A stretch of 64,000 nt of DNA from assembly GCF_030169785.1 (NCBI RefSeq), contig NZ_CP125854.1:930001-994000 (forward strand), written 5' to 3'. This document shows positions 36,212 to 47,470 of this stretch, piece after piece (within the stretch, counting starts at the first letter, position 1; every line of letters starts with the position of its first letter). The notes under the pieces are model-generated. The model had not been told where the DNA came from. It did not search any database and worked only from the letters and a program-made list of their open reading frames with translations. Both the position numbers and the translations under genes were made by a program. This DNA is from Bdellovibrio sp. 22V (lineage in GTDB: Bacteria; Bdellovibrionota; Bdellovibrionia; Bdellovibrionales; Bdellovibrionaceae).

Positions 36212-36266
36212 TTTCAAAGTCTTAATCCTCATTACAGATTAAACAGAGGCCAAGGCTGAATTTCAG

Positions 36267-36281
36267 TGGCACAACCAGTGC
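36267..36281 (+). promoter_or_regulatory. Possible sigma-54 promoter (TGGCAC-N5-GTGC)
   Basis: TGGCAC (36267-36272) and GTGC (36278-36281) give GG and GC at the required 12-base spacing. The match to TGGCACG-N4-TTGCA is good except for A at the seventh and G at the twelfth position. It ends 32 bases before the ATG at 36314 with the ribosome site between. Confidence 0.35.
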
Positions 36282-36313
36282 TTGAGGGGACGTATCACAG
36301 AAGGTGGGGAAAT

Positions 36314-37738
36314 ATGAGTGATCAACATATTGAACCTGAGTTAACAGTTGGCGAAATTATAAAGCTTTATTTGTCCCATTGGCGAATGTTCGTCTTGTTT
36401 ACCGCGGTCCTATTTGGCATTAGTGCGCTTATCTATGCAGTCAAAATTCCTTTCGTCGCATCATCGACGATAGTTATTAACGACTCGCAGAACTCGTCTT
36501 TGCAGGCGTTTTCGAATCAGTTTTTTGGTCTTTCCAAATCCGTTCAAGAATCAAAAAAAGGCAGCAGCGTTCTTTCCAAACACATTGAATATTTAAAAAC
36601 GCGCGAGTTTTACGAAGCCTTGCTGCAGCGAATTCCTGTGCGTGGCAACAGTCCTTCCATCACGATGGAGGAAAGAAAAGGCTTCGACATCTTTAAGGAA
36701 AAATATCTTGCCGCTTTAAATGAGAAGCCGGCGAACCGTATTGAAGTCTTGCAAACTCTGGATCGATGGACTCGGATCCAATTAGATTCGGACTTTGCGA
36801 TCAAGGTTTCCGCGGTGACTCCGATTAAGTCACTTTCTTTGTTCTTGTCAAACACGGCCTCTGAGCTGGCGGCGGAAACGCTTAAGAAAAGAGAACTGGA
36901 AGAGATCGCTCGTGTCGAGAACTTCATGGCGAAACAGAAAACCGACGCTGATCAAAAGCTGGCGGTGCTTGGAAAACAACTCGCGGACCTGCAAAACAAA
37001 GATGAAAACTTGATGCCGTTGGCGGCCAAAGAAAAAATGGGTGACTACGTGTCGGAGCTCATTGTTCGCGCTAATGAAATCAAGCTCAAGATGGCAGAGA
37101 ATCGTAAAATGATTCAATATCTTGAAAGAGGCCGCACGGGCCAAAGAGAAAGTTCTCTTTATGGTGTGGGCGGTAAAATTGAAGGTCTTAAAATTGAAAA
37201 CAGTTTGCTGTCTTCAAAACTCGGCCAAATTCAAAGCAGTATTAATCGTCTCAGAAAAGAAGTCCGTCAGTTGCCGTTTGCCGCACAAATGGTCGAGGAC
37301 CTAAAAAAGAAGTCAGAGCTTGAGTTTGCGCGGTATAAAGAGCTTTCAACTTCATTGGCGAAACTTGAGGCGCAAAAAATCTCTATCGATACGCGTTTCG
37401 AAGTTTTGGAAAGAGCCCGCTGGGAAAGCACTTTGCCGCAGATCGGGTTGCTCAGCTTAGGTTTGCTGTCCTTGCTTATCAGTCAATTTGCGGGATCTTT
37501 GGTTATTTATTTCCGGTACCTTTGGAATCCGCATGTGGTTACGGCGCAAGCGTCGCGCAACTTGGTTATCTTCGACAACCACTCCGTGGATCCACGCGTG
37601 ATTATCGAGAATTCAAAAATCAAATTCAGTCTGAAAAAGCCGGAGCCTAAAAAAGATGGTGACGTTGAGGAAACAGACCAAGAGAAAATCGCTTGGAATG
37701 TTCTTAATGTAGGACAAGGAAGCGATATCTCTCAGTAG
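36314..37738 (+). CDS. Wzz-type polysaccharide chain-length determinant
   Basis: A 474-residue inner-membrane protein. There is one N-terminal helix (about residues 26-46) and one near residue 400, with a long periplasmic coiled coil between (about 190-360) containing K-T-D-A-D-Q-K-L. The N-terminal Wzz pattern (V-G-E-I-I-K-L-Y-L-S-H-W-R and I-Y-A-V-K-I-P-F-V-A-S-S-T-I-V-I-N-D) is clear. No fused tyrosine kinase domain; the cytoplasmic tail is about 60 residues and charged. Start at MSDQHIEP after AGGTGGGGA. A sigma-54-like promoter may lie just upstream. Confidence 0.85.
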   Translation: MSDQHIEPELTVGEIIKLYLSHWRMFVLFTAVLFGISALIYAVKIPFVASSTIVINDSQNSSLQAFSNQFFGLSKSVQESKKGSSVLSKHIEYLKTREFYEALLQRIPVRGNSPSITMEERKGFDIFKEKYLAALNEKPANRIEVLQTLDRWTRIQLDSDFAIKVSAVTPIKSLSLFLSNTASELAAETLKKRELEEIARVENFMAKQKTDADQKLAVLGKQLADLQNKDENLMPLAAKEKMGDYVSELIVRANEIKLKMAENRKMIQYLERGRTGQRESSLYGVGGKIEGLKIENSLLSSKLGQIQSSINRLRKEVRQLPFAAQMVEDLKKKSELEFARYKELSTSLAKLEAQKISIDTRFEVLERARWESTLPQIGLLSLGLLSLLISQFAGSLVIYFRYLWNPHVVTAQASRNLVIFDNHSVDPRVIIENSKIKFSLKKPEPKKDGDVEETDQEKIAWNVLNVGQGSDISQ

Positions 37739-37747
37739 GGTGTGATT

Positions 37748-38893
37748 ATGATGAAGTCGTGCGTAAGCGGATTGTTGTTGTTGTCGGTATCTGTGTTGAT
37801 TGGTTGCGGTAATAAATACGATTCCGGCGTTCAAAAAGCGGTAACGGATAATAAAGAAGCCAAGAACCTGATGGAGTGGAAACTCTCGGAAGGAAATCCG
37901 GAAACTTTGTTTGCGCAGTGGCGCGAAGATTTTAAGAAGAACCCTAGCGAGCAAGATAAAATGAAAAGTGAGCTATGTACGGCGCTGCACTCGCTGGATG
38001 GAGTGGCTCTTACGATTTTCGAAGAAGAGTTGCGCAGAAAAAGTAACGCTCCGCTGGTGACTTCCTGCAAGAACGAACTTTTATCTAAACTCGACATCTT
38101 CTTTAGCAAAGAAAGAGAAACGCTGCCTGTTGCGGTAGACGCGAATTCGACGCAGCCTTCGCCAAACAATTTCCGTTTTTCCGATAACGTGCAAAAGCGC
38201 GATACCTCAAAAGGGTACTACGCTTCTTACGGGGATGTCGCCCGCAAGGAAATCGTTCTGACTTTTGATGATGGTCCTACGGGAGTTTACACAGAGTCGA
38301 TCTTGCGCTCACTTCGAGAAGTGAATGCAAAGGCGATCTTTTTCCAGCTTGGCAAAAACGCGTCGCTGAATCCTGGAATCGTCAGAAAAGTCGCGGCGGA
38401 CGGTCACGCCATTGGCAGTCACTCCATTGGACACAAATGTTTGGGAACGAGCGCCGCTTGCCGTAGAAACAACGGTTATAATTTGAGTTTTGATGAAGCT
38501 GTCGCTGAAATCAAAGGCGGCCATCAAGCAATCTATGACATCTTGGGATGGGTAGATCCTTTCTTTAGATTTCCTTATGCGGAAGGAAGTCCTGAGCTCC
38601 GCCAGTTCTTAAAGGCGAATTCGACGGCGGAATTTGCGTGGGTGATCGACAGCGAAGACTGGCGCGGGCAATCCAATGAAAATCTTCTTCGTAATACCCT
38701 GGCTCAAGTGGATGCGAAAGGCCGCGGGATCGTTTTGTTCCATGATATTCAAAGAAGAACGGCGGAAATTATGCCGCAGTTCTTGCGCGAACTTTACATG
38801 CGAGGCTTCAGTGTTGTATTACTTCAATCGGCAGACCCGAATGCAAGATACAACAGTAAATTGGTGAGGAAGAGAAGCAATCCTCTTCCGTAA
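37748..38893 (+). CDS. Polysaccharide (NodB-type) deacetylase lipoprotein
   Basis: A 381-residue lipoprotein (lipobox L-I-G-C, Cys20) that removes acetyl groups from N-acetylated sugars outside the cytoplasm. Residues about 165-365 are a NodB domain with T-F-D-D-G-P (172-177), metal ligands in S-H-S-I-G-H, R-F-P-Y-A-E-G, W-V-I-D-S-E-D-W and a final V-L-F-H-D-I. All canonical residues are present. Bdellovibrio uses two such deacetylases on prey peptidoglycan; this position resembles that of one of them (Bd3279, my recollection). Exopolysaccharide modification is the alternative because of the polysaccharide genes upstream. Confidence 0.88.
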   Translation: MMKSCVSGLLLLSVSVLIGCGNKYDSGVQKAVTDNKEAKNLMEWKLSEGNPETLFAQWREDFKKNPSEQDKMKSELCTALHSLDGVALTIFEEELRRKSNAPLVTSCKNELLSKLDIFFSKERETLPVAVDANSTQPSPNNFRFSDNVQKRDTSKGYYASYGDVARKEIVLTFDDGPTGVYTESILRSLREVNAKAIFFQLGKNASLNPGIVRKVAADGHAIGSHSIGHKCLGTSAACRRNNGYNLSFDEAVAEIKGGHQAIYDILGWVDPFFRFPYAEGSPELRQFLKANSTAEFAWVIDSEDWRGQSNENLLRNTLAQVDAKGRGIVLFHDIQRRTAEIMPQFLRELYMRGFSVVLLQSADPNARYNSKLVRKRSNPLP

Positions 38894-38899
38894 TGGAAA

Positions 38900-39277
38900 A
38901 TGAAACGACCTGACGTAGACCGTCCTTCGACTTGGAAATTATATAAAACGGATATGTGCAAAGGCTGCTGGGGCGGCTGTTGCACAATGCCTGTGGAAGT
39001 GAAGCTTTCAGATTTAATCCGCCTGCAACTCGTGACTGAAGATGAGGCAGCGGGCTCCATAAAAAAAATGGCGAAACGTTTAATTAAAGAGGGCTTCATT
39101 GTCTCTTACCGTCAAGGTACGGAGTTCTTCATGCTCTCGCAAAAAGCCAACCGCGACTGTCTTTTTCTCGACTCAAAAACGCGCCTTTGCACTGTCTATG
39201 ACAAGCGACCCGATACCTGCCGTCAGTTTCCCTCTATAGGGCCGCGCCCTGGATTTTGTCCAGGGTCCTCGCAATAG
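38900..39277 (+). CDS. YkgJ-like cysteine-cluster protein
   Basis: A 125-residue cytoplasmic protein of the YkgJ/UPF0153 zinc- or iron-chelating family. Cysteine pattern: C-x-x-C-x-x-x-C-C (C-K-G-C-W-G-G-C-C), then C-L-F-L-D-S-K-T-R-L-C-T-V-Y-D-K-R-P-D-T-C-R-Q-F-P. The core Y-x-x-R-P-x-x-C-R-x-F-P is the family signature. Function unknown; it probably binds an iron-sulphur cluster or zinc. It starts 6 bases after the deacetylase gene. Confidence 0.85.
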   Translation: MKRPDVDRPSTWKLYKTDMCKGCWGGCCTMPVEVKLSDLIRLQLVTEDEAAGSIKKMAKRLIKEGFIVSYRQGTEFFMLSQKANRDCLFLDSKTRLCTVYDKRPDTCRQFPSIGPRPGFCPGSSQ

Positions 39278-39392
39278 CGTCTCACATTGAGACTGTCAGT
39301 GTTCTAGACACCCCTTTACGCAAGTTTGTCTCTGTCTCAGGCTGGTATGTGCCAGGTCCTCTATATGGCTTCCCTCGTGGCACAAGCGCTGC

Positions 39393-39409
39393 TCTTACAG
39401 TCTGTAAGA
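39393..39409 (+). promoter_or_regulatory. 17-base palindrome next to the ribosome site of the 39422 gene
   Basis: TCTTACAG T CTGTAAGA: perfect 8-bp arms around one base, immediately before AGGAGG and 12 bases before the ATG. It could be an operator for a dimeric regulator or a small RNA hairpin. The 144-base gap also contains GTCTCA-CAT-TGAGAC (39279-39293). Confidence 0.4.
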
Positions 39410-39421
39410 ACAGGAGGCTTT

Positions 39422-40471
39422 ATGGGCTTCAATGACAGAAAACTTGAAACTGCGATTCTCGGTCTCGCCATTTTGCTGGTGGGGGGACTCGGTTATGTCT
39501 TGAAAACTCCTGTTCAAGCGGTTTTGAGCGAGGCGGAAGTGGTTTACGAAATGCCACGTCCTAAGAAGTCCTTCTTGGCTTCTTTGTTCGATCTTGGTGA
39601 CCGTGAAGTTTCTAGAAAATACGTAAATCCTTTTGCGAAAAAAGAAGCGGCCAAAACGGCTGATGCTAAAAAGAACGATAAGGCGGCCCCTGCGAAGCCC
39701 GTAGCGCAGAAAAAACAGGATACTAAAAAGACGGCGGAGGCTCGAAAGCCTAAAGTCGACGTGCAAGTTGTTGGCGGTAACGATACAAAAACATTGGGCG
39801 GCGATGAGATCTTCCCAGAAGGACAGCGCTATAACCAAAACTACAGCGATACTGCGAACAATTCCAATCCAGCTCAAGCTAAAGAAGATAAGAATGTGAT
39901 GGGTGGAGATCAATGGCGCGCGCTTTTAATGGCGCAGCCAACGAAAGAAAATGTCGCGAAACTTATGGCGGCCTTTTCGAATAACGAAATTGACGAGCAA
40001 ATGTATTATACGATCGTGACGGATCTTTTCCGCAACAATAAATCAGAGGTTCAAGCTTTGGGATTGGTTGCAGTTAAAGGCGCCTATAACGTGAAAAGCT
40101 TCAGCATCACGGCACAGTATTACGATCAGTTGACTCCGGAAGTTCAAACGCAAGCGCACGCGTACTTGTTGACTTACGCGGTTTCAGGACGCTTGCCAAT
40201 CTTGGCGTCAGCTCTGCAAAGTTCCAATGCAGAAGTTGTCATGACAGCGGTTGAAGTAGTGAAGCATGGTCACCAACAAGCTAAAGACGGTGTGAACCCA
40301 GGCTCGGACCCACGCAACTCGCGTGGTGACGTGGTTGTGAACGGAGTTGCCGGTTACGCGAAGTTCATTCCGATCTTCCAACAGCTTTCACAAAGCCAAG
40401 ATGCGACAATTGCAGGTCTTGCAAGTTCGGCTTTGAGTCAAATTCAAACAACAGCGGTGGCTGCTCTTTAA
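39422..40471 (+). CDS. Membrane-anchored protein with HEAT-like helical domain
   Basis: A 349-residue unrecognised protein. The start follows AGGAGG. One N-terminal membrane helix (about residues 8-28) leads to a Lys/Ala/Pro-rich linker (70-115), then a polar region. The C-terminal 190 residues are alpha-helical with repeats of about 35 residues (V-Q-A-L-G-L-V-A-V-K-G-A-Y-N-V, then A-E-V-V-M-T-A-V-E-V-V-K-H-G) resembling HEAT-type repeats. The helical domain probably lies in the periplasm and binds a partner protein. Confidence 0.65.
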   Translation: MGFNDRKLETAILGLAILLVGGLGYVLKTPVQAVLSEAEVVYEMPRPKKSFLASLFDLGDREVSRKYVNPFAKKEAAKTADAKKNDKAAPAKPVAQKKQDTKKTAEARKPKVDVQVVGGNDTKTLGGDEIFPEGQRYNQNYSDTANNSNPAQAKEDKNVMGGDQWRALLMAQPTKENVAKLMAAFSNNEIDEQMYYTIVTDLFRNNKSEVQALGLVAVKGAYNVKSFSITAQYYDQLTPEVQTQAHAYLLTYAVSGRLPILASALQSSNAEVVMTAVEVVKHGHQQAKDGVNPGSDPRNSRGDVVVNGVAGYAKFIPIFQQLSQSQDATIAGLASSALSQIQTTAVAAL

Positions 40472-40512
40472 AACTGGACAGCCCCGGTCATTGTGGTCAA
40501 CAATAGCCTCTC

Positions 40513-41229
40513 ATGGCGATGCGTATTTTTCTTTTTCTATTGTTAAGTTCTTCGTTTGCTTGGGCGGCCACAGATTTGCCGCGAAATCTGAGCTCCTCCG
40601 ATCGCACACGCATGCTGCAAATTTTGGGAATGGGCTCGGCGGCAAAAACGCTCGACAATCCTTATCCGTTGGGTGGGTATTCAGGTGTTGAAGTCGGTCT
40701 GTCATCACAGTTCATTCCGGCCGAAGATTTAGCGAGCCTTGGCGACAAGACGAACGACAAAGGCGAATACAATTACTACACTTTGAACTTTGGCAAAGGT
40801 CTTTATTACAACATCGACACCATGGTTTATTTTGCTCCGTTCTCGCAAAGTGAAGAGGTGCAAACTTTCGGTGGTCAGATCCGCTGGGGTTTTTACGAAG
40901 CTTCTTTTTTTCCTCTGACTTTAACAGCGACAGTCTATGGTGGCGGAGCCAACTTCCAAAATCTTTTAGGCGTTTCAACTTTCGGTACGGACTTGCTTGC
41001 GACGGTGACAATGGATAACGTTGCCATCTATGTCGGCGGTGGTCGCGTGCGCGCCGCCGGGAAGTTTTACGGCGGGTTGACAGATACCGGAGAAACCATC
41101 GAACAAGATGTGGTTGAAGATCATACGGTGTTCGGTATCAACGTCGACGTTGCAAAAATGTTTATCGCTTTGCAAATTGATCGTTATGTCGATTCCATGT
41201 ACAGCGGAAAAATCGGTTTTCGTTTTTAA
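40513..41229 (+). CDS. Small outer-membrane beta-barrel-like protein
   Basis: A 238-residue protein with a signal peptide (ending A-W-A-A-T-D). The mature part consists of alternating hydrophobic/polar strands with aromatic ends (Y-N-Y-Y-T-L-N-F-G-K-G-L-Y-Y, I-R-W-G-F-Y-E-A-S-F-F-P-L-T-L-T-A-T-V-Y-G-G). The terminal residues K-I-G-F-R-F end in Phe, as outer-membrane barrels do. About eight to ten strands are likely. Function unknown. ATG at 40513 or 40519; no strong ribosome site for either. Confidence 0.65.
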   Translation: MAMRIFLFLLLSSSFAWAATDLPRNLSSSDRTRMLQILGMGSAAKTLDNPYPLGGYSGVEVGLSSQFIPAEDLASLGDKTNDKGEYNYYTLNFGKGLYYNIDTMVYFAPFSQSEEVQTFGGQIRWGFYEASFFPLTLTATVYGGGANFQNLLGVSTFGTDLLATVTMDNVAIYVGGGRVRAAGKFYGGLTDTGETIEQDVVEDHTVFGINVDVAKMFIALQIDRYVDSMYSGKIGFRF

Positions 41230-41403
41230 ATCTCAGATATCGTGACTGAATCAGTATTTCTTACAGACAAGAAAGCTAGCGATCACGCCTCAGATGTCTG
41301 TGAAAAAACTGTCGCTGGGCAAGTAATTGAAGTGTCTTACTAGACTGTCATGTGACTTTAATGCGCGATAGTTCAATAGTGGCGAGGCTTTTGAGGAGCC
41401 TTT

Positions 41404-42087
41404 ATGTTGGACTTTTCCGTGCTGAATTCTTCATTCTCGAATCCGACATGGATTTCGATTATCTACGCTTTTTTACTTAGCTTTATTCTCGGAACAGTTT
41501 TGGCGATTGTTTATGTCAAAACTTTTCGAGGTCTTTCTTATTCTCTTAATTTTCTGCACGGTCTTGTCTTGTTACCCATCGTGATTGCGATCGCGATGCA
41601 AGCCATCGGTGACAACGTCGCTCGCGGTATCGGGATGATCGGGGCTTTGTCTCTTTTGCGTTTTCGCACGAACGTCAAAGATCCACGCGATATGTTCTTT
41701 ATCTTTGCATCCTTGGCGGTTGGACTGGCCTCTGGAGTTCATGCTTATGGAATTGCTGTCCTAGGTACAGCGTGCTTCGTTCTTGCCTTAGTTATTTTGC
41801 AAGGATCACCCTTCGCCGCTGGACCGCAGTTCGATGGACTTTTAAGATTTAATTTGTCTCGTTCCGCGGATGAACAGCGGGCTGTCGAGAACATCCTGGA
41901 GGAAAAGTGCCGCCACTTCGCATTGGCAACGATTCGCGAAGTTGGTCAGGGCGAGCGTCTTGATTTTTCTTACCAAGTTCGTTTGAAACCTCAGGCAACT
42001 TCTGCACAGCTTGTTGAAGATCTCGGAAAAGTTCAGTCCGTCCGAGGCTTGAATTTTATGAATCAAGAATCGGTCATTGAGGTTTAA
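41404..42087 (+). CDS. DUF4956 membrane protein, first gene of VTC operon
   Basis: A 227-residue inner-membrane protein. The first 140 residues hold four or five helices with the DUF4956 core (A-R-G-I-G-M-I-G-A-L-S-L-L-R-F-R-T, then K-D-P-R-D-M-F-F-I-F-A-S-L-A-V-G-L-A-S-G). The C-terminal 90 residues form a cytoplasmic ferredoxin-like part. DUF4956 genes are repeatedly found with VTC-domain and CotH-type genes in bacteria (established association, function unproven). First gene of a four-gene run with overlaps or one-base gaps. AGGAG lies 6 bases upstream. Confidence 0.85.
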   Translation: MLDFSVLNSSFSNPTWISIIYAFLLSFILGTVLAIVYVKTFRGLSYSLNFLHGLVLLPIVIAIAMQAIGDNVARGIGMIGALSLLRFRTNVKDPRDMFFIFASLAVGLASGVHAYGIAVLGTACFVLALVILQGSPFAAGPQFDGLLRFNLSRSADEQRAVENILEEKCRHFALATIREVGQGERLDFSYQVRLKPQATSAQLVEDLGKVQSVRGLNFMNQESVIEV

Positions 42088-42088
42088 T

Positions 42089-43864
42089 ATGAAAACATTC
42101 AAGTCGGTTGTTCGTTCCCTTTTTCAAGACATCGTAGGTACAGACAATAAACTTCTTTTCTTTTCTTGGTGTACCGCTGTCTTTCTCGTGCTTACTTTAG
42201 GCGTTGTTTTAAGTTCTGAATCGGTGAGTATACTAGGGGTTGCCGAGTCCCGAGAATACCAGGTGAATTTTTCAGATTCTGTCGAGATCAAGCACGTGCA
42301 CGTCATTCCCAGTCAGATCGTTAAAAAAGGCGATTTGCTTTTGGAACTAGGTCAGTCGGATTTGGATTTGCAATTGCGAGTTCTACGTTCCAAATACGAT
42401 AAGCTCATCGCGGAAATGAAGCTGCGTAAACAATTATCGGAGCTGGCGCGAGACAAAGTGTATCTTTCGGAAGGAGCGGATCCGCTTCAGGTTGATATCA
42501 CGGATACCAAACGCGAAATCGACTTAATCGAAAATCGTTTGCGCAATCTTTATGTTTTTGCCGAGGTCGATGGTGCCGTCGGTGCCGTGAATTTCAAAAG
42601 CGGCGAGAAAGCACCGGCCTTTGCGCCGTTGTTGACTCTTCTTCCGATCAATCCCAGCTACGTCAATGGATATGTGAATGAAAACCTGCGCTCGACGATC
42701 AAGGTTGGACAAATCGTCGAAGTTTCTTCCTCTGGCGGAAAAACCGTTCAGGGACGAGTGGTCAGCGTCGGTTCCCGCATTGTTCAGATTCCCGATCGCC
42801 TGCTGCGCATCCAAACTTTGCCGGCATGGGGACGTGAAGTCACCGTCAAGATTCCGACAGAGAATGAATTTCTTTTAGGTGAACGAGTCAGCGTCCAAAA
42901 ATCCTGGGGAGTTACTTTGTTCAGCACTGCTCAGGCCGACGAAAGCGAAAAGAGCTGGGATGCCGCCTCTGTGACGATGGACATTCAGATTCCTATGAAT
43001 ATCACGGATCAGTTTCATCCCGAAATTTCCGGTATCGTTTATCTTGCAGAACTTCGCAAGTTTGCGTTGATCTCTGATGATTACCCCGATGACCGTCCTA
43101 TGATTATGTTGATGGATGAAAATGGAGCTATTCAAGAACAAATGTTGCCTATTTCGGGCCTTGAACATATGGAGGACATCGAGTCCATCTCGGCTGCGAA
43201 CGACAACATTTATCTTCTCAGTTCTCTGTCCGCGACGAAAAAAGAAAAACTCAAAAGAGAGCGGCAGCTTTTTGTAAAGGTCGCGCGAAAAGGAATGCAG
43301 TTTGAGCTTGTCGAAGAAGTGGATCTGCGCAAGGCACTTCTTTCGGCGCTCGAAAAGTCCAGCGATCCGGTTTTAAGAGAAATCGCAGGTCGTTCCTTGG
43401 GCACAAAAAAAGACGATCTTGAAGTTGAAGCGCACTCTGTGAAAGACGGCGATCTTTATTTGGCTCTTAAGCGTCCGATCCTCATCGAGAATCAAGGACT
43501 TATTCTAAAAATTAAAAATTTCGACCGCATTTTCGGAAAAGGAAAAATAGCTCCAGCCGACGTCAGCGTGGCCTCGCAGTTCTCAATGAAATTGCCGCAA
43601 AAAAATAACGGACTCTATTTAACGGACTTGGTTCTTGAGGGTGACGACATGTTTATTTCAACGTCTTGCCGTGGGGCGAAGTGCAGCGCTGTTTGGCGCA
43701 TTCCCAAAGGCTTCGAGACAGCGGAGCTTCTGCAAGAATTTGACGTCGACAAACTCGAGGGTTTAGCAATGCATCCGGGCCGACGCCAGCTCTACGGTGT
43801 CTTTGACAACAAGAAGAGCGGCAAGTTTGTTTCCATTCCTTATGTGGGAAAAAGGGCTCTGTGA
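42089..43864 (+). CDS. HlyD-type adaptor fused to a C-terminal beta-propeller-like domain
   Basis: A 591-residue protein. It has an N-terminal membrane helix (about 22-44) and a barrel-sandwich/lipoyl domain around a short coiled hairpin (about 60-200, I-P-S-Q-I-V-K-K-G-D-L-L-L-E-L-G). A beta-barrel region with K-V-G-Q-I-V-E-V-S-S-S follows. From about residue 300 to the end is a domain like SdiA-regulated/phytase-like or DUF3616 propellers (E-I-S-G-I-V-Y-L, then E-D-I-E-S-I-S, then D-L-E-V-E-A, then K-L-E-G-L-A-M-H-P). Such a fusion is unusual for adaptors. Start one base after the DUF4956 stop; stop overlaps the next ATG. Confidence 0.75.
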   Translation: MKTFKSVVRSLFQDIVGTDNKLLFFSWCTAVFLVLTLGVVLSSESVSILGVAESREYQVNFSDSVEIKHVHVIPSQIVKKGDLLLELGQSDLDLQLRVLRSKYDKLIAEMKLRKQLSELARDKVYLSEGADPLQVDITDTKREIDLIENRLRNLYVFAEVDGAVGAVNFKSGEKAPAFAPLLTLLPINPSYVNGYVNENLRSTIKVGQIVEVSSSGGKTVQGRVVSVGSRIVQIPDRLLRIQTLPAWGREVTVKIPTENEFLLGERVSVQKSWGVTLFSTAQADESEKSWDAASVTMDIQIPMNITDQFHPEISGIVYLAELRKFALISDDYPDDRPMIMLMDENGAIQEQMLPISGLEHMEDIESISAANDNIYLLSSLSATKKEKLKRERQLFVKVARKGMQFELVEEVDLRKALLSALEKSSDPVLREIAGRSLGTKKDDLEVEAHSVKDGDLYLALKRPILIENQGLILKIKNFDRIFGKGKIAPADVSVASQFSMKLPQKNNGLYLTDLVLEGDDMFISTSCRGAKCSAVWRIPKGFETAELLQEFDVDKLEGLAMHPGRRQLYGVFDNKKSGKFVSIPYVGKRAL

Positions 43865-45030
43865 TGTTTGTTTTGTTCTTAGTTCTGATGGGTGTCAAAG
43901 CGCAAGCTCTGACGTCTGAACAAGTTTTGAAAACGGCGTGGAATGATAAAACCTATCTTTCCTATGACGGCATGGAATCCGTGGATTCCCGCAATCCTTT
44001 GCGCAATGTGGAGGGTTTTGTAAACACGGAATCTAATAGTAAAAACAGCGATCGCGAAACGGAATTTGGCCTTAAGTTTCAGCTTAAGTCGTGGCCGGAA
44101 TGGCGGCTGGGAGAGCAAAAGAAGGACACGGATTCCCACCTGCTTAAAGATAGTTCTCTCGGGTGGGCGCTTCGCAATCGTTACACTGTTTTGCTTTTTG
44201 TGGAATTGAATCGGCAGAAAATGAAATATGTCGATGAGGCCATTCGTCTTGCCGATGGATATCTTAAGGCGCAAACTCTGGCGCTGCAGGCGGGCCGAGG
44301 CTCATCGAAATCATTTCTTTCGGCGAAGACAGATCTTTATAAATTTCAGCGCCTCAAAAACGCTCTCGAGCAAGAAAAAGAAGTTTTGCGGAAAAAATTA
44401 GAAGTCTGGGTGGTAAACGAAAAATCCACAGAACTTGAGCCGATTAACTTGATTAGTGTAAAGAAAATTTCAGAGTTTTTGCAGGGACATTCCTCCGGGA
44501 CAGATTCTTTAACAAAAAAACTGGCAAAGGAAGAAATCAACCAGATGACCCAAGAACTGGAAATTGTTCGCGGTCGAGATCATCAATGGATTAAAGCTTT
44601 TGAGGTCAGTCAGTCTAATAACGACGATGAAACAAAGTACAAGCTGGGAATTAATATTCAGATTCCCGGTTTGGGTTACGATACATTGGCAAAACAGAAG
44701 CTCAATGATTTGACTTTGAAACGGGCCTTGAAACAGCGGGATTTGGAAGAGACTACGGATCGCCTGCAAACCTTGAAAGTTCAAATTCTCAATCTTATCG
44801 ATATTTATGGAGCGGCGAAAAAACTGCCTATGTCGAACGCGCCGGGGAGCTTAGATCCTTTGGCCAATATCGAGCGGAAGATTTCGATGCAGGAAGAACA
44901 AATTGAACTGCTCAATCAACAGCAAGAGATCACGAATCTTTACATTGATTATCTTCTTGAAAGTGAAATCCTGATTAAACATCCGGAACCGAATTATTTA
45001 GTGCAAACGGCGGCGAAGGATCAGCCATGA
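43864..45030 (+). CDS. TolC-like outer-membrane factor, short form
   Basis: A 388-residue protein with a signal peptide (M-F-V-L-F-L-V-L-M-G-V-K-A-Q-A) and two long helical stretches (about 100-180 and 285-375) separated by strand-rich segments. The pattern fits a TolC/OEP protein. It is a little shorter than usual and has weak sequence motifs, so the outer-membrane-factor call also rests on its place after a HlyD-type adaptor. TGATG overlap with the previous stop; it overlaps the VTC gene by four bases. Confidence 0.7.
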   Translation: MFVLFLVLMGVKAQALTSEQVLKTAWNDKTYLSYDGMESVDSRNPLRNVEGFVNTESNSKNSDRETEFGLKFQLKSWPEWRLGEQKKDTDSHLLKDSSLGWALRNRYTVLLFVELNRQKMKYVDEAIRLADGYLKAQTLALQAGRGSSKSFLSAKTDLYKFQRLKNALEQEKEVLRKKLEVWVVNEKSTELEPINLISVKKISEFLQGHSSGTDSLTKKLAKEEINQMTQELEIVRGRDHQWIKAFEVSQSNNDDETKYKLGINIQIPGLGYDTLAKQKLNDLTLKRALKQRDLEETTDRLQTLKVQILNLIDIYGAAKKLPMSNAPGSLDPLANIERKISMQEEQIELLNQQQEITNLYIDYLLESEILIKHPEPNYLVQTAAKDQP

Positions 45031-45809
45031 GTACGCAAGTTTCTCCCTTAAGTCTGGAGCGATACGAGCTGAAATATTTGATTCCGAAGGAGCTGATCGA
45101 ACCGATCTCTCGGTATGTGGAGGCGTATTGTTACATGGATTATTATTCCGAGATATCTCCTGATCACTTTTACGTGATTAACAGTTTGTATCTGGATACT
45201 CCGGCTTTGTATATTCTGCAGTTTAAAGAACGAGCGAACGCCTTTAACTTTAATATGCGCATTCGTTCTTACGGAAGCGATCCGAAGCCTCCCTATTTTT
45301 TCGAAACCAAGTACAAGATCCGTGAATTTGTTCGAAAGAAAAGAGCTAAAGTTTCTGAAAATTGGATTGAGATCCTGGAAAACGACATGATACCGGAAGG
45401 GCTCGACGAATCGTCAAAAGCGAACCTCGAGGATTTTCTGCGTCAGAAGATAACTTATAATGTGGGACCTGTGATTTTGACCCAGTATCGCCGTAAGGCC
45501 TATATCTCCCACGTCGACGACTATGCCCGAGTGACCTTTGATCGTGACCTTCGTTATCAGGAAAAGAACGAGTGGTGTGTGGTGCCGGATGAAAAGGCCC
45601 TTTGCCATTATGACCATCCAGACTCTTTCGAAGAGCCGGGGTGCAATGTGATTCTGGAATTGAAATGCGAAAAAAAGATTCCGGTATGGATGGTCGAGAT
45701 GATCAGACATTTCCAGCTTGTGGGTGGCAATTTTTCCAAATTCGGAAACTCCATGGCCACGCACTTAAACATCCCCGACGTGTTATCGCCGGGGAGTCTC
45801 TATCGTTAA
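45027..45809 (+). CDS. VTC-domain protein (polyphosphate polymerase fold)
   Basis: A 260-residue cytoplasmic protein of the VTC/CYTH triphosphate-tunnel superfamily, which in yeast Vtc4 polymerises ATP gamma-phosphates into polyphosphate. Tunnel residues are conserved: R-Y-E-L-K-Y (12-17), Y-L-D-T (55-58), M-R-I-R (R78, R80), F-F-E-T-K (E93, K95), Q-Y-R-R (R155, R156), R-V-T-F-D (168-172), I-L-E-L-K (E211, K213) and F-S-K-F-G (K238). Activity is therefore plausible. It has no membrane helix of its own, so DUF4956 may supply the membrane part. Overlaps the TolC-like gene (ATGA) and the convergent kinase-like gene by four bases. Confidence 0.87.
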   Translation: MSTQVSPLSLERYELKYLIPKELIEPISRYVEAYCYMDYYSEISPDHFYVINSLYLDTPALYILQFKERANAFNFNMRIRSYGSDPKPPYFFETKYKIREFVRKKRAKVSENWIEILENDMIPEGLDESSKANLEDFLRQKITYNVGPVILTQYRRKAYISHVDDYARVTFDRDLRYQEKNEWCVVPDEKALCHYDHPDSFEEPGCNVILELKCEKKIPVWMVEMIRHFQLVGGNFSKFGNSMATHLNIPDVLSPGSLYR

Positions 45810-47173
45810 AGACAAGAAACGCTTGGCAAGTTTGCGCCTGGAACGTAGTTTTCCAAGTCGACGTCAAACTTCAGTTGGCCGCTTTGACATTTCTCTACAA
45901 GAATTTGACGGGCCTTCGCGGCATTCTGTTGCAAAGAAGCAAATTCCGCTGAAGAGAACAGCAGCTCTTGTTGGAAATAATCGCGCGAGTCTTGCGTATT
46001 CAAGCTTTGGTGAAACGCCAGAAAATTTCTATATGTCTGGTAGCTCATATGACGAACCTTTTCGAGTACGGAATACTTGCGCATCATATTCGTTTTGGAA
46101 ATGCCGCAATCGTTATCCTTTAAGACCATTTCTTTTACCAGAGCCGCTTGGTACGGAGCCATCTTTTGAGTTTCTTGCGGTGGAACTACAAGTTGCTCGT
46201 TCACCCATTCGGCGTCTGATTTGTCTCTTTGAATTTTTCCGGGATTCTGTGGGTCAAGATAGTACCAGTAGAATTTGTAGTGAATATTGCCGATACGGTC
46301 CTGCTGATTGAGCAGAGTGTCCAAAAGGATCATGTCAGAGACATCCTTCATCTGCAAAGCTGTCTGCGCGACATTCTTAAAATTCGTGGAACCCGCAAGT
46401 TGTGCCACGGACTGGGCGCTGGAAACGCGCAAGAACGGAGCCTGTTTCATGAAACGCTCATAACGAGTTTCATAACTGCCACGCCCGCTGACTTCCATGT
46501 ATTTTTCTTCGTTCTTGACGTTGTCACTCAAAGCGCCAAAAACCTGGGTTTGCGAATTGTCGAAAACGTTCGGATGTAAACGCGGGGATTTATGCCAATC
46601 AGCGAAGATGCGCCAGGCTTGCGCTATTTCTTCGCGGCTTCCACGCAGGTAATTGTTCGCTTTGACAGTCAATCTTTGATGAATGGATTTATCCATTGTG
46701 CGAATGACCGTCGGAGGCACGCGTCCTACTCCGCCAAGAATGCGCGAGACATGATAGTAAGATAAAATCGACGGAGTGTGCGAACAGGTAATGCTCTGTT
46801 TGAATTTGGCTTCTGTCTTCACATCCATTTTGTCTAAATTGCAGTTAGAGGCATCGATAGCCGGTTTGCTGTATTTGGCGTTAGGCTGTAACATCAAAAT
46901 AGCCGGGTTCGTCGAGTTGTATTTTGGGCAGATACCCATGTTCGTATAGAAGTTGTATGCGCAGAGCTGGCGTTCTTTTTCGATATCGCCGTTCTTATAT
47001 TTTCCGCCGGGATATTTTTTCGAAATAACACAAAGCTCGGTAAGGCCTTGAGGAGAGCGATACTCCGTTCGGGCATCACCGCGAAGCTCGCTAAGATTGA
47101 GCGCTAAGGCGGTGGAAAAAGACAGAGTCATCGGCGCAATGACGACGATTTTCGAGAGGACCAAGGATTTCAT
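45806..47173 (-). CDS. Secreted FAM20C-like kinase-fold protein
   Basis: A 455-residue protein with a signal peptide (start at MKSLVLSKIVV; the longer frame is rejected). Motifs recall the FAM20/CotH secretory kinases. The N-lobe motif reads Y-Y-H-V-S-R-I-L-G-G-V-G-R-V-P-P-T-V-I-R (about 140-158), like the FAM20C helix L-D-R-I-L-x-x-x-R-V-P-P-x-x-x-R. The catalytic loop reads L-L-N-Q-Q-D-R-I-G-N (287-296, candidate catalytic D292). The metal motif is K-D-N-D-C-G-I (352-358). About ten cysteines suggest disulphides. Motif recognition by eye only; the target could be proteins, glycans or a small molecule. Its stop meets the VTC stop. Confidence 0.7.
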   Translation of the reverse strand: MKSLVLSKIVVIAPMTLSFSTALALNLSELRGDARTEYRSPQGLTELCVISKKYPGGKYKNGDIEKERQLCAYNFYTNMGICPKYNSTNPAILMLQPNAKYSKPAIDASNCNLDKMDVKTEAKFKQSITCSHTPSILSYYHVSRILGGVGRVPPTVIRTMDKSIHQRLTVKANNYLRGSREEIAQAWRIFADWHKSPRLHPNVFDNSQTQVFGALSDNVKNEEKYMEVSGRGSYETRYERFMKQAPFLRVSSAQSVAQLAGSTNFKNVAQTALQMKDVSDMILLDTLLNQQDRIGNIHYKFYWYYLDPQNPGKIQRDKSDAEWVNEQLVVPPQETQKMAPYQAALVKEMVLKDNDCGISKTNMMRKYSVLEKVRHMSYQTYRNFLAFHQSLNTQDSRDYFQQELLFSSAEFASLQQNAAKARQILVEKCQSGQLKFDVDLENYVPGANLPSVSCL

Positions 47174-47470
47174 AGTGTCGTTTCCTTCGTTATTATTGTT
47201 GGAGTTAAATGTGTTTATATGAACAAAGACTAGGGACGACACCTTACAATCATGAGATGGAAAGAAATGTATTGATGAAATTCTCCCTCGGCGAACCCCG
47301 CAAAAAAATTCCACAAAACGAAATCCATTTCCACGAGTAGGACTAAAGTTGAACTTTTTCGTCAATATTGCGGACTAAAAAATGAACTTTGTCACTGAAT
47401 GACCTCGCATTCGAAAAATTACGGTCCAGCAAGCTTGTGATTTTTGACATTCTTCCTTCATGATGAAGGA
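47174..47470. promoter_or_regulatory. Divergent intergenic region between kinase-like and phosphatase-like genes
   Basis: A 297-base AT-rich gap shared by two divergent start sites (47173 minus, 47471 plus). No gene is seen. The minus-side ribosome site is AGGAAACGACAC upstream of 47173. I find no convincing sigma-70 or sigma-28 promoter. Confidence 0.4.

Follow-up and report, generated by a model that had tools for sequence, protein, structure and literature searches.

A conserved operon in Bdellovibrio and other phyla joins DUF4956 and VTC-type proteins to a periplasmic adaptor and a TolC-like factor: a candidate trans-envelope system

We know of no established bacterial route for placing polyphosphate on the cell surface, nor, to our knowledge, has a role been assigned to the VTC/DUF4956 genes of bacteria. 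In yeast, the VTC complex couples the synthesis of polyphosphate to its translocation across a membrane. An operon of Bdellovibrio sp. 22V, in which the gene for a VTC-type enzyme follows genes for a DUF4956 membrane protein, a periplasmic adaptor and an outer-membrane factor, raises the question of whether a phosphate polymer could be made and passed across the whole envelope of a bacterial cell, and what would drive it. This conserved combination of VTC enzyme, adaptor and TolC-type factor names candidate genes in culturable organisms (Bdellovibrio and Fibrobacterota); were the idea true, tripartite export would extend to polymerase-driven systems.

The window is the whole stretch of DNA that was analysed, 64,000 nucleotides long, and the operon occupies positions 41404-45809 as four ORFs, all on the + strand, with neighbours that overlap or sit one base apart. 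Gene A (41404..42087, +) encodes a DUF4956 membrane protein of 227 aa, gene B (42077..43864, +) a HlyD/MacA-type periplasmic adaptor of 595 aa, gene C (43861..45030, +) a TolC-superfamily outer-membrane factor of 389 aa and gene D (45027..45809, +) a VTC-type triphosphate-tunnel enzyme of 260 aa. A ribosome-binding-site-like GAGGAG, read directly from the sequence, lies 5 bases 5′ of gene A (41393..41398, +). The ORF of gene B opens with a TTG at 42077; the likely start is the ATG at 42089, which leaves a one-base gap after gene A. The first-pass annotation had described four coupled genes of these kinds, and on both counts it was right: the ORFs are where it placed them, and the gene kinds are supported by Pfam in the case of A, B and D and by predicted folds in the case of B and C. 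No gene for an ABC, RND or MFS inner-membrane motor is found within the four-gene operon.

The arrangement extends well beyond this genome. Among 241 sampled Bdellovibrionota genomes, 41 carry VTC and 22, from several families, carry the A-B-C-D block (complete in 21, cut by a contig end in one). A contig scan of further genomes found the block in Fibrobacterota, in Crenothrix and in an alphaproteobacterial MAG, and parts of it in Myxococcota and in a mussel methanotroph endosymbiont. The DUF4956 clade of this operon is present in 104 of 168 Fibrobacterota genomes at E < 1e-78, with one further weak match, and in 4/201 genomes of the Methylococcales, the order of Crenothrix; the block is also found in methanotrophic Gammaproteobacteria. 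Twenty further loci (18 from Fibrobacterota, two from the Crenothrix order) all have A-B-C in order, and 19 of them D too; in the remaining one the retrieved stretch stops at C. None of the 18 Fibrobacterota loci is without the block. The arrangement exceeds chance, because the A-B-C-D order with tight spacing repeats across phyla. The four-gene association is strongly present in Bdellovibrionota and other phyla, which gives good support to a DUF4956-VTC system of trans-envelope type as a conserved unit. Across 34 loci, all six pairings of the four proteins give correlated distance matrices (r 0.85-0.94, values confounded by species phylogeny), and a tree of A and D largely tracks the organisms. 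These two proteins are the best conserved among the four, and in a set of 14 control genomes DUF4956 and VTC co-occur, the same three carrying both. In the methanotrophic Bathymodiolus endosymbiont (L113:7025-10164) an IS66 element divides the DUF4956 gene, in what is apparently a decaying copy.

Gene D matches Pfam VTC (PF09359) at E 2.6e-45, where it scores 155 bits and the curated cut-off lies at 23, and a profile of 28 relatives finds yeast Vtc4 at E 2.5e-27, homologous over the whole length of gene D; up to E 1, the matches of this profile are all VTC proteins, with no other family among them. In native Vtc4 numbering, K16 corresponds to K200, R78 to R264, R80 to R266, E93 to E279, K95 to K281, K104 to K294, Y154 to Y359, R156 to R361, R168 to R373, E211 to E426, K213 to K428 and K238 to K458. 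Every mapped position is invariant in the 28 sequences apart from R168 (27/28), and all are conserved in the comparison with Vtc4, so that the earlier remark that all visible tunnel residues are conserved is borne out. Joint replacement of R264, R266 and E426 inactivates yeast VTC (PMC9911596). K458 is a catalytic residue of Vtc4, whereas its counterpart in a hydrolytic relative is almost dispensable (PMC4641920). By register from E426/E169, K213 falls at the position of Glu171, which belongs to the acidic patch of the hydrolytic enzyme AtTTM3 (PMC4641920). At the product exit, R12 (Vtc4 R196; Arg in 27/27) and K213 are basic and conserved and position 108 is mostly K, yet E14 is Glu in 28/28 sequences; Vtc4 has Thr there, and E14 is more like the Glu that hydrolytic relatives carry in their acidic patch. 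Gene D lacks an SPX domain and Vtc1-type fused membrane helices (its 260 aa contain only the VTC domain by Pfam), and its hydropathy profile, with no hydrophobic segment, is that of a soluble protein.

Gene A would be the membrane partner of this enzyme. It matches DUF4956 (PF16316) at E 6.9e-15 and MgtC at E 6.2e-5, and MgtC is known as a regulator, not as a channel. The hydropathy profile has ∼4 hydrophobic segments, with peaks near residues 17-35, 50-68, 97-117 and 114-132, which form an MgtC-like membrane region, and a C-terminal domain that is soluble. Within or beside the membrane region, R86 and R88 are present in 28/28 aligned sequences and K92 in 27/28, and this conservation persists among relatives merely 16-29% identical. 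Since translocation by yeast VTC requires basic pore residues (PMC9911596), the parallel with R86, R88 and K92 at the membrane suggests that A may act as a pore.

The same two proteins can be read without any polymer export. D would then be an enzyme of the triphosphatase or cyclase kind, or a binding protein, and A would be a regulator resembling MgtC; sensing nucleotide or phosphate state, the pair would govern either an envelope process or the HlyD-TolC channel. The tunnel residues are indeed common to all triphosphate tunnel metalloenzymes, triphosphatases and cyclases included, and the hydrolytic members have Glu at the position of E14 (PMC4641920); to this can be added the score of A to MgtC and the description of a DUF4956 homologue as MgtC-like with an ACT-like domain at its C-terminus (PMC12345266). 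The equivalents of Vtc4 K428 and K458 are nevertheless invariant, R12 is Arg throughout, and VTC proteins are the only structural relatives that the profile search returned. We consider this explanation improbable. With its catalytic residues matching those of Vtc4, set against the invariant E14, gene D is likely, though unproved, to be a polymerase.

Genes B and C supply the outer part of the predicted conduit. Gene B matches HlyD_3 in Pfam at E 1.2e-6, as well as HlyD_D23, and consists of an N-terminal membrane anchor (aa 26-44), an adaptor region (∼aa 47-283) and a C-terminal β-propeller (∼aa 292-593). Its AlphaFold2 model (pLDDT 84.1) leads to MacA/MexA in Foldseek and to MacA in VIA-align (Z 13.8-14.7), and the propeller (model residues 292-593) has its best VIA-align score, Z 20.4, with YjiK. 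The adaptor with a propeller that had been proposed is real on this modelling, with one refinement: the propeller, although usual, is dispensable, because several gene B relatives are without it. Gene C itself has no meaningful Pfam match, and 3/20 aligned relatives match OEP (PF02321; best E 6e-6). Its AlphaFold2 model (20 relatives; pLDDT 84.9, pTM 0.77) repeats twice the pattern of helix, β-hairpin and long helix that makes up the TolC protomer, with two β-hairpins and long helical hairpins per protomer, and Foldseek returns TolC, OprM and CusC structures at probability 1.00 (TolC E 4e-11). As modelled, gene C, which has a signal peptide at its N-terminus, folds as a TolC protomer, in keeping with the outer-membrane factor originally named. 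Assignment of a specific function to the propeller was rejected, since its fold matches point in different directions (YjiK, glutaminyl cyclase, calcium-activated nucleotidase) and several relatives have no propeller; a phytase-like domain was likewise set aside (E 0.038 in the window, best 3e-4 among relatives). A plasmid copy of the adaptor was looked for, and none was found.

In known systems, HlyD-TolC pairs are powered by ABC, RND or MFS motors. The operon shares with such tripartite exporters (MacAB-TolC, EmrAB-TolC, type I secretion) an adaptor and, by fold, a TolC-superfamily factor; it differs in having a putative tunnel polymerase and DUF4956 where they have a motor gene, and in an adaptor that often bears a β-propeller. 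Its adaptor and TolC-like protein might still form a conventional exporter of another cargo, energised by a motor encoded elsewhere, with the phosphate product of DUF4956-VTC regulating or modifying that cargo. An MMPL (RND-like) transporter gene adjoins DUF4956-VTC in L063 and L065, so the pair can coexist with a motor. Across 47 distinct loci, however, no motor family recurs beside the block in different lineages, a result that covers gene neighbourhoods; the first-pass view that the operon has no ABC, RND or MFS motor stands. Moreover, from phylum to phylum the adaptor and TolC-like genes keep their place between DUF4956 and VTC. Fibrobacter does have further OEP and HlyD genes, downstream of an LTD-domain protein that follows D, but these form a second pair with an adaptor and outer-membrane factor of their own, separate from the block. 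An unlinked motor seems unlikely, if still a serious proposal.

The reading that we favour, tentatively and at somewhat less than an even chance, is that the four genes specify an exporter that carries polyphosphate, or a closely related phosphate polymer, across the envelope, driven by synthesis and without an ABC, RND or MFS motor. It draws on the homology of D to Vtc4 and on the invariance of the catalytic residues. D would dock on the cytoplasmic side of the inner membrane and transfer γ-phosphates from ATP to a chain growing in its tunnel. The chain would leave through a presumably basic tunnel exit and thread an oligomer of A, whose invariant Arg and conserved Lys residues at the membrane may play the part that basic pore residues have in yeast Vtc1/3/4. 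In the periplasm, B would then collect the chain and link A to C, through which the polymer would cross the outer membrane. The export force would come from chain growth together with charge or membrane potential. The probable purpose would be to place polyphosphate on or outside the cell, possibly for exported CotH-type kinases. The synthesis-driven export first suggested for this locus is partly supported: the trans-envelope unit is conserved, while the polyphosphate product, the DUF4956 channel and the driving force keep the standing of proposals. Weighing against export are the Glu at E14, a D protein that has neither the SPX sensor of Vtc4 nor its fused membrane helices, and the resemblance of DUF4956 to MgtC. 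That the polymerase is itself the motor of a dedicated surface-polyphosphate route in Fibrobacter, Bdellovibrio and their relatives, perhaps feeding exported CotH-type kinases, is possible, though less likely than not.

In the yeast VTC complex (Vtc1/3/4), the polymerase domain is homologous and has the same catalytic residues, and synthesis coupled to translocation via a basic membrane pore is the shared expectation. The membrane part of the operon is instead a separate DUF4956/MgtC-like protein, not a Vtc1-type three-helix domain, and the bacterial system has no SPX domain and continues with an adaptor and an outer-membrane channel. PPK1, which presumably makes the same polymer, is an unrelated enzyme encoded elsewhere in the genome. 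It would provide the ordinary polyphosphate inside the cell, and intracellular or storage polyphosphate is therefore probably independent of the operon.

DUF4956 and VTC genes are also neighbours in Gram-positive Pel loci (Streptococcus intermedius SIR_1592-1594: cotH, polyP polymerase, DUF4956); there the two genes and that for a secreted CotH lie side by side as accessory genes (PMC7112168, PMC12345266). In contrast with the operon, these loci have no HlyD/TolC, as there is no outer membrane, and are tied to Pel synthesis and secreted CotH; no pel genes occur among the scanned neighbours of the operon. S. intermedius had more Pel when the DUF4956 gene was deleted and less when cotH was, and it aggregated less in either case (PMC12345266). 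The VTC gene SIR_1593 is not among these two accessory genes whose loss cut aggregation (PMC12345266), a point also weighed against export. The three genes were not found outside Pel loci by the authors of that work (PMC12345266); the Bdellovibrionota and Fibrobacterota loci have DUF4956-VTC, sometimes with CotH, and no obvious Pel context among the scanned genes. The first-pass statement that no system of this composition has been described is therefore to be narrowed: the DUF4956-VTC pair is already known from Pel loci, with CotH, whereas the search of papers, subscription papers and preprints aside, turned up no account of its HlyD-TolC extension, nor any paper on Bdellovibrio with a polyphosphate polymerase. 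The operon is real, widely conserved and apparently undescribed.

CotH genes bring in a further explanation, which alters the purpose of export rather than its plumbing: the main task of DUF4956-VTC would be to provide, beyond the cytoplasm, polyphosphate or some other activated phosphate with which exported CotH-type kinases phosphorylate surface proteins or polysaccharide, and HlyD-TolC would deliver this phosphoryl donor to the outer surface. CotH adjoins the four-gene block in L087, L089/L161, L167 and L168, and DUF4956-VTC loci without HlyD-TolC in L058, L060, L066, L069, L070, L071 and L074; nine CotH proteins that were inspected all start with a signal peptide or membrane anchor, and genes for LTD surface domains follow D in Fibrobacter, which together with the adjacency in Pel loci speaks for such a link. 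However, no CotH kinase was found by Pfam among the scanned neighbours in the window, the kinase-like motifs of its exported neighbours are without statistical support, and a CotH kinase that takes its phosphate from polyphosphate is hypothetical. A main role as kinase donor is quite unlikely. In two Fibrobacterota loci (L168:8093-10999 and L172:7023-8732), LTD-domain surface proteins and an LTD-CotH fusion lie directly after or near the VTC gene. At other Bdellovibrionota VTC loci, DUF4956 is found alongside CotH kinases, β-helix proteins, sugar-polymer genes or an MMPL gene, the last (L063, L065) being a third output type for the pair.

Two exported families recur beside the block. In Bdellovibrio, D is followed by a convergent gene for an exported Cys-rich protein (45806-47365, -) of no Pfam family, in which K115, K117, DR..N (284-288) and DND (345-347) are invariant in 22 relatives. 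In sampled genomes of the genus, the gene goes together with VTC (13/13 VTC-positive, 0/4 VTC-negative); in other genera it also occurs without VTC. The second family, of ∼1100-1300 aa where complete and also with no Pfam match, is adjacent to and co-oriented with the block in eight non-Bdellovibrio loci (L044:10550-14002, L045, L047, L048, L079, L081, L088 and L094) and has NxDLK..NN and HDxG (DxG) motifs. Both were considered as Fam20C/CotH-like kinases from motif likeness by eye; neither gave a significant hhalign match to CotH or any hit in Pfam or the PDB, and the idea is kept as no more than a lead.

Upstream of the operon lies a Pho-box-like site, CTGTCATGTGACTTTAAT at 41345-41362; with 2 mismatches, it matches better than any other site in the window. 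Control by phosphate starvation was rejected, as the number of Pho-box matches at ≤3 mismatches is not above shuffles and relatives do not share the site. The region farther upstream (36266-41229) encodes a Wzz-like chain-length protein and a polysaccharide deacetylase-like protein, both recognised by eye, and a CxxCxxCC protein, together with weakly HEAT-like and β-barrel-like proteins, the last two of which recur upstream in five Bdellovibrio loci only.
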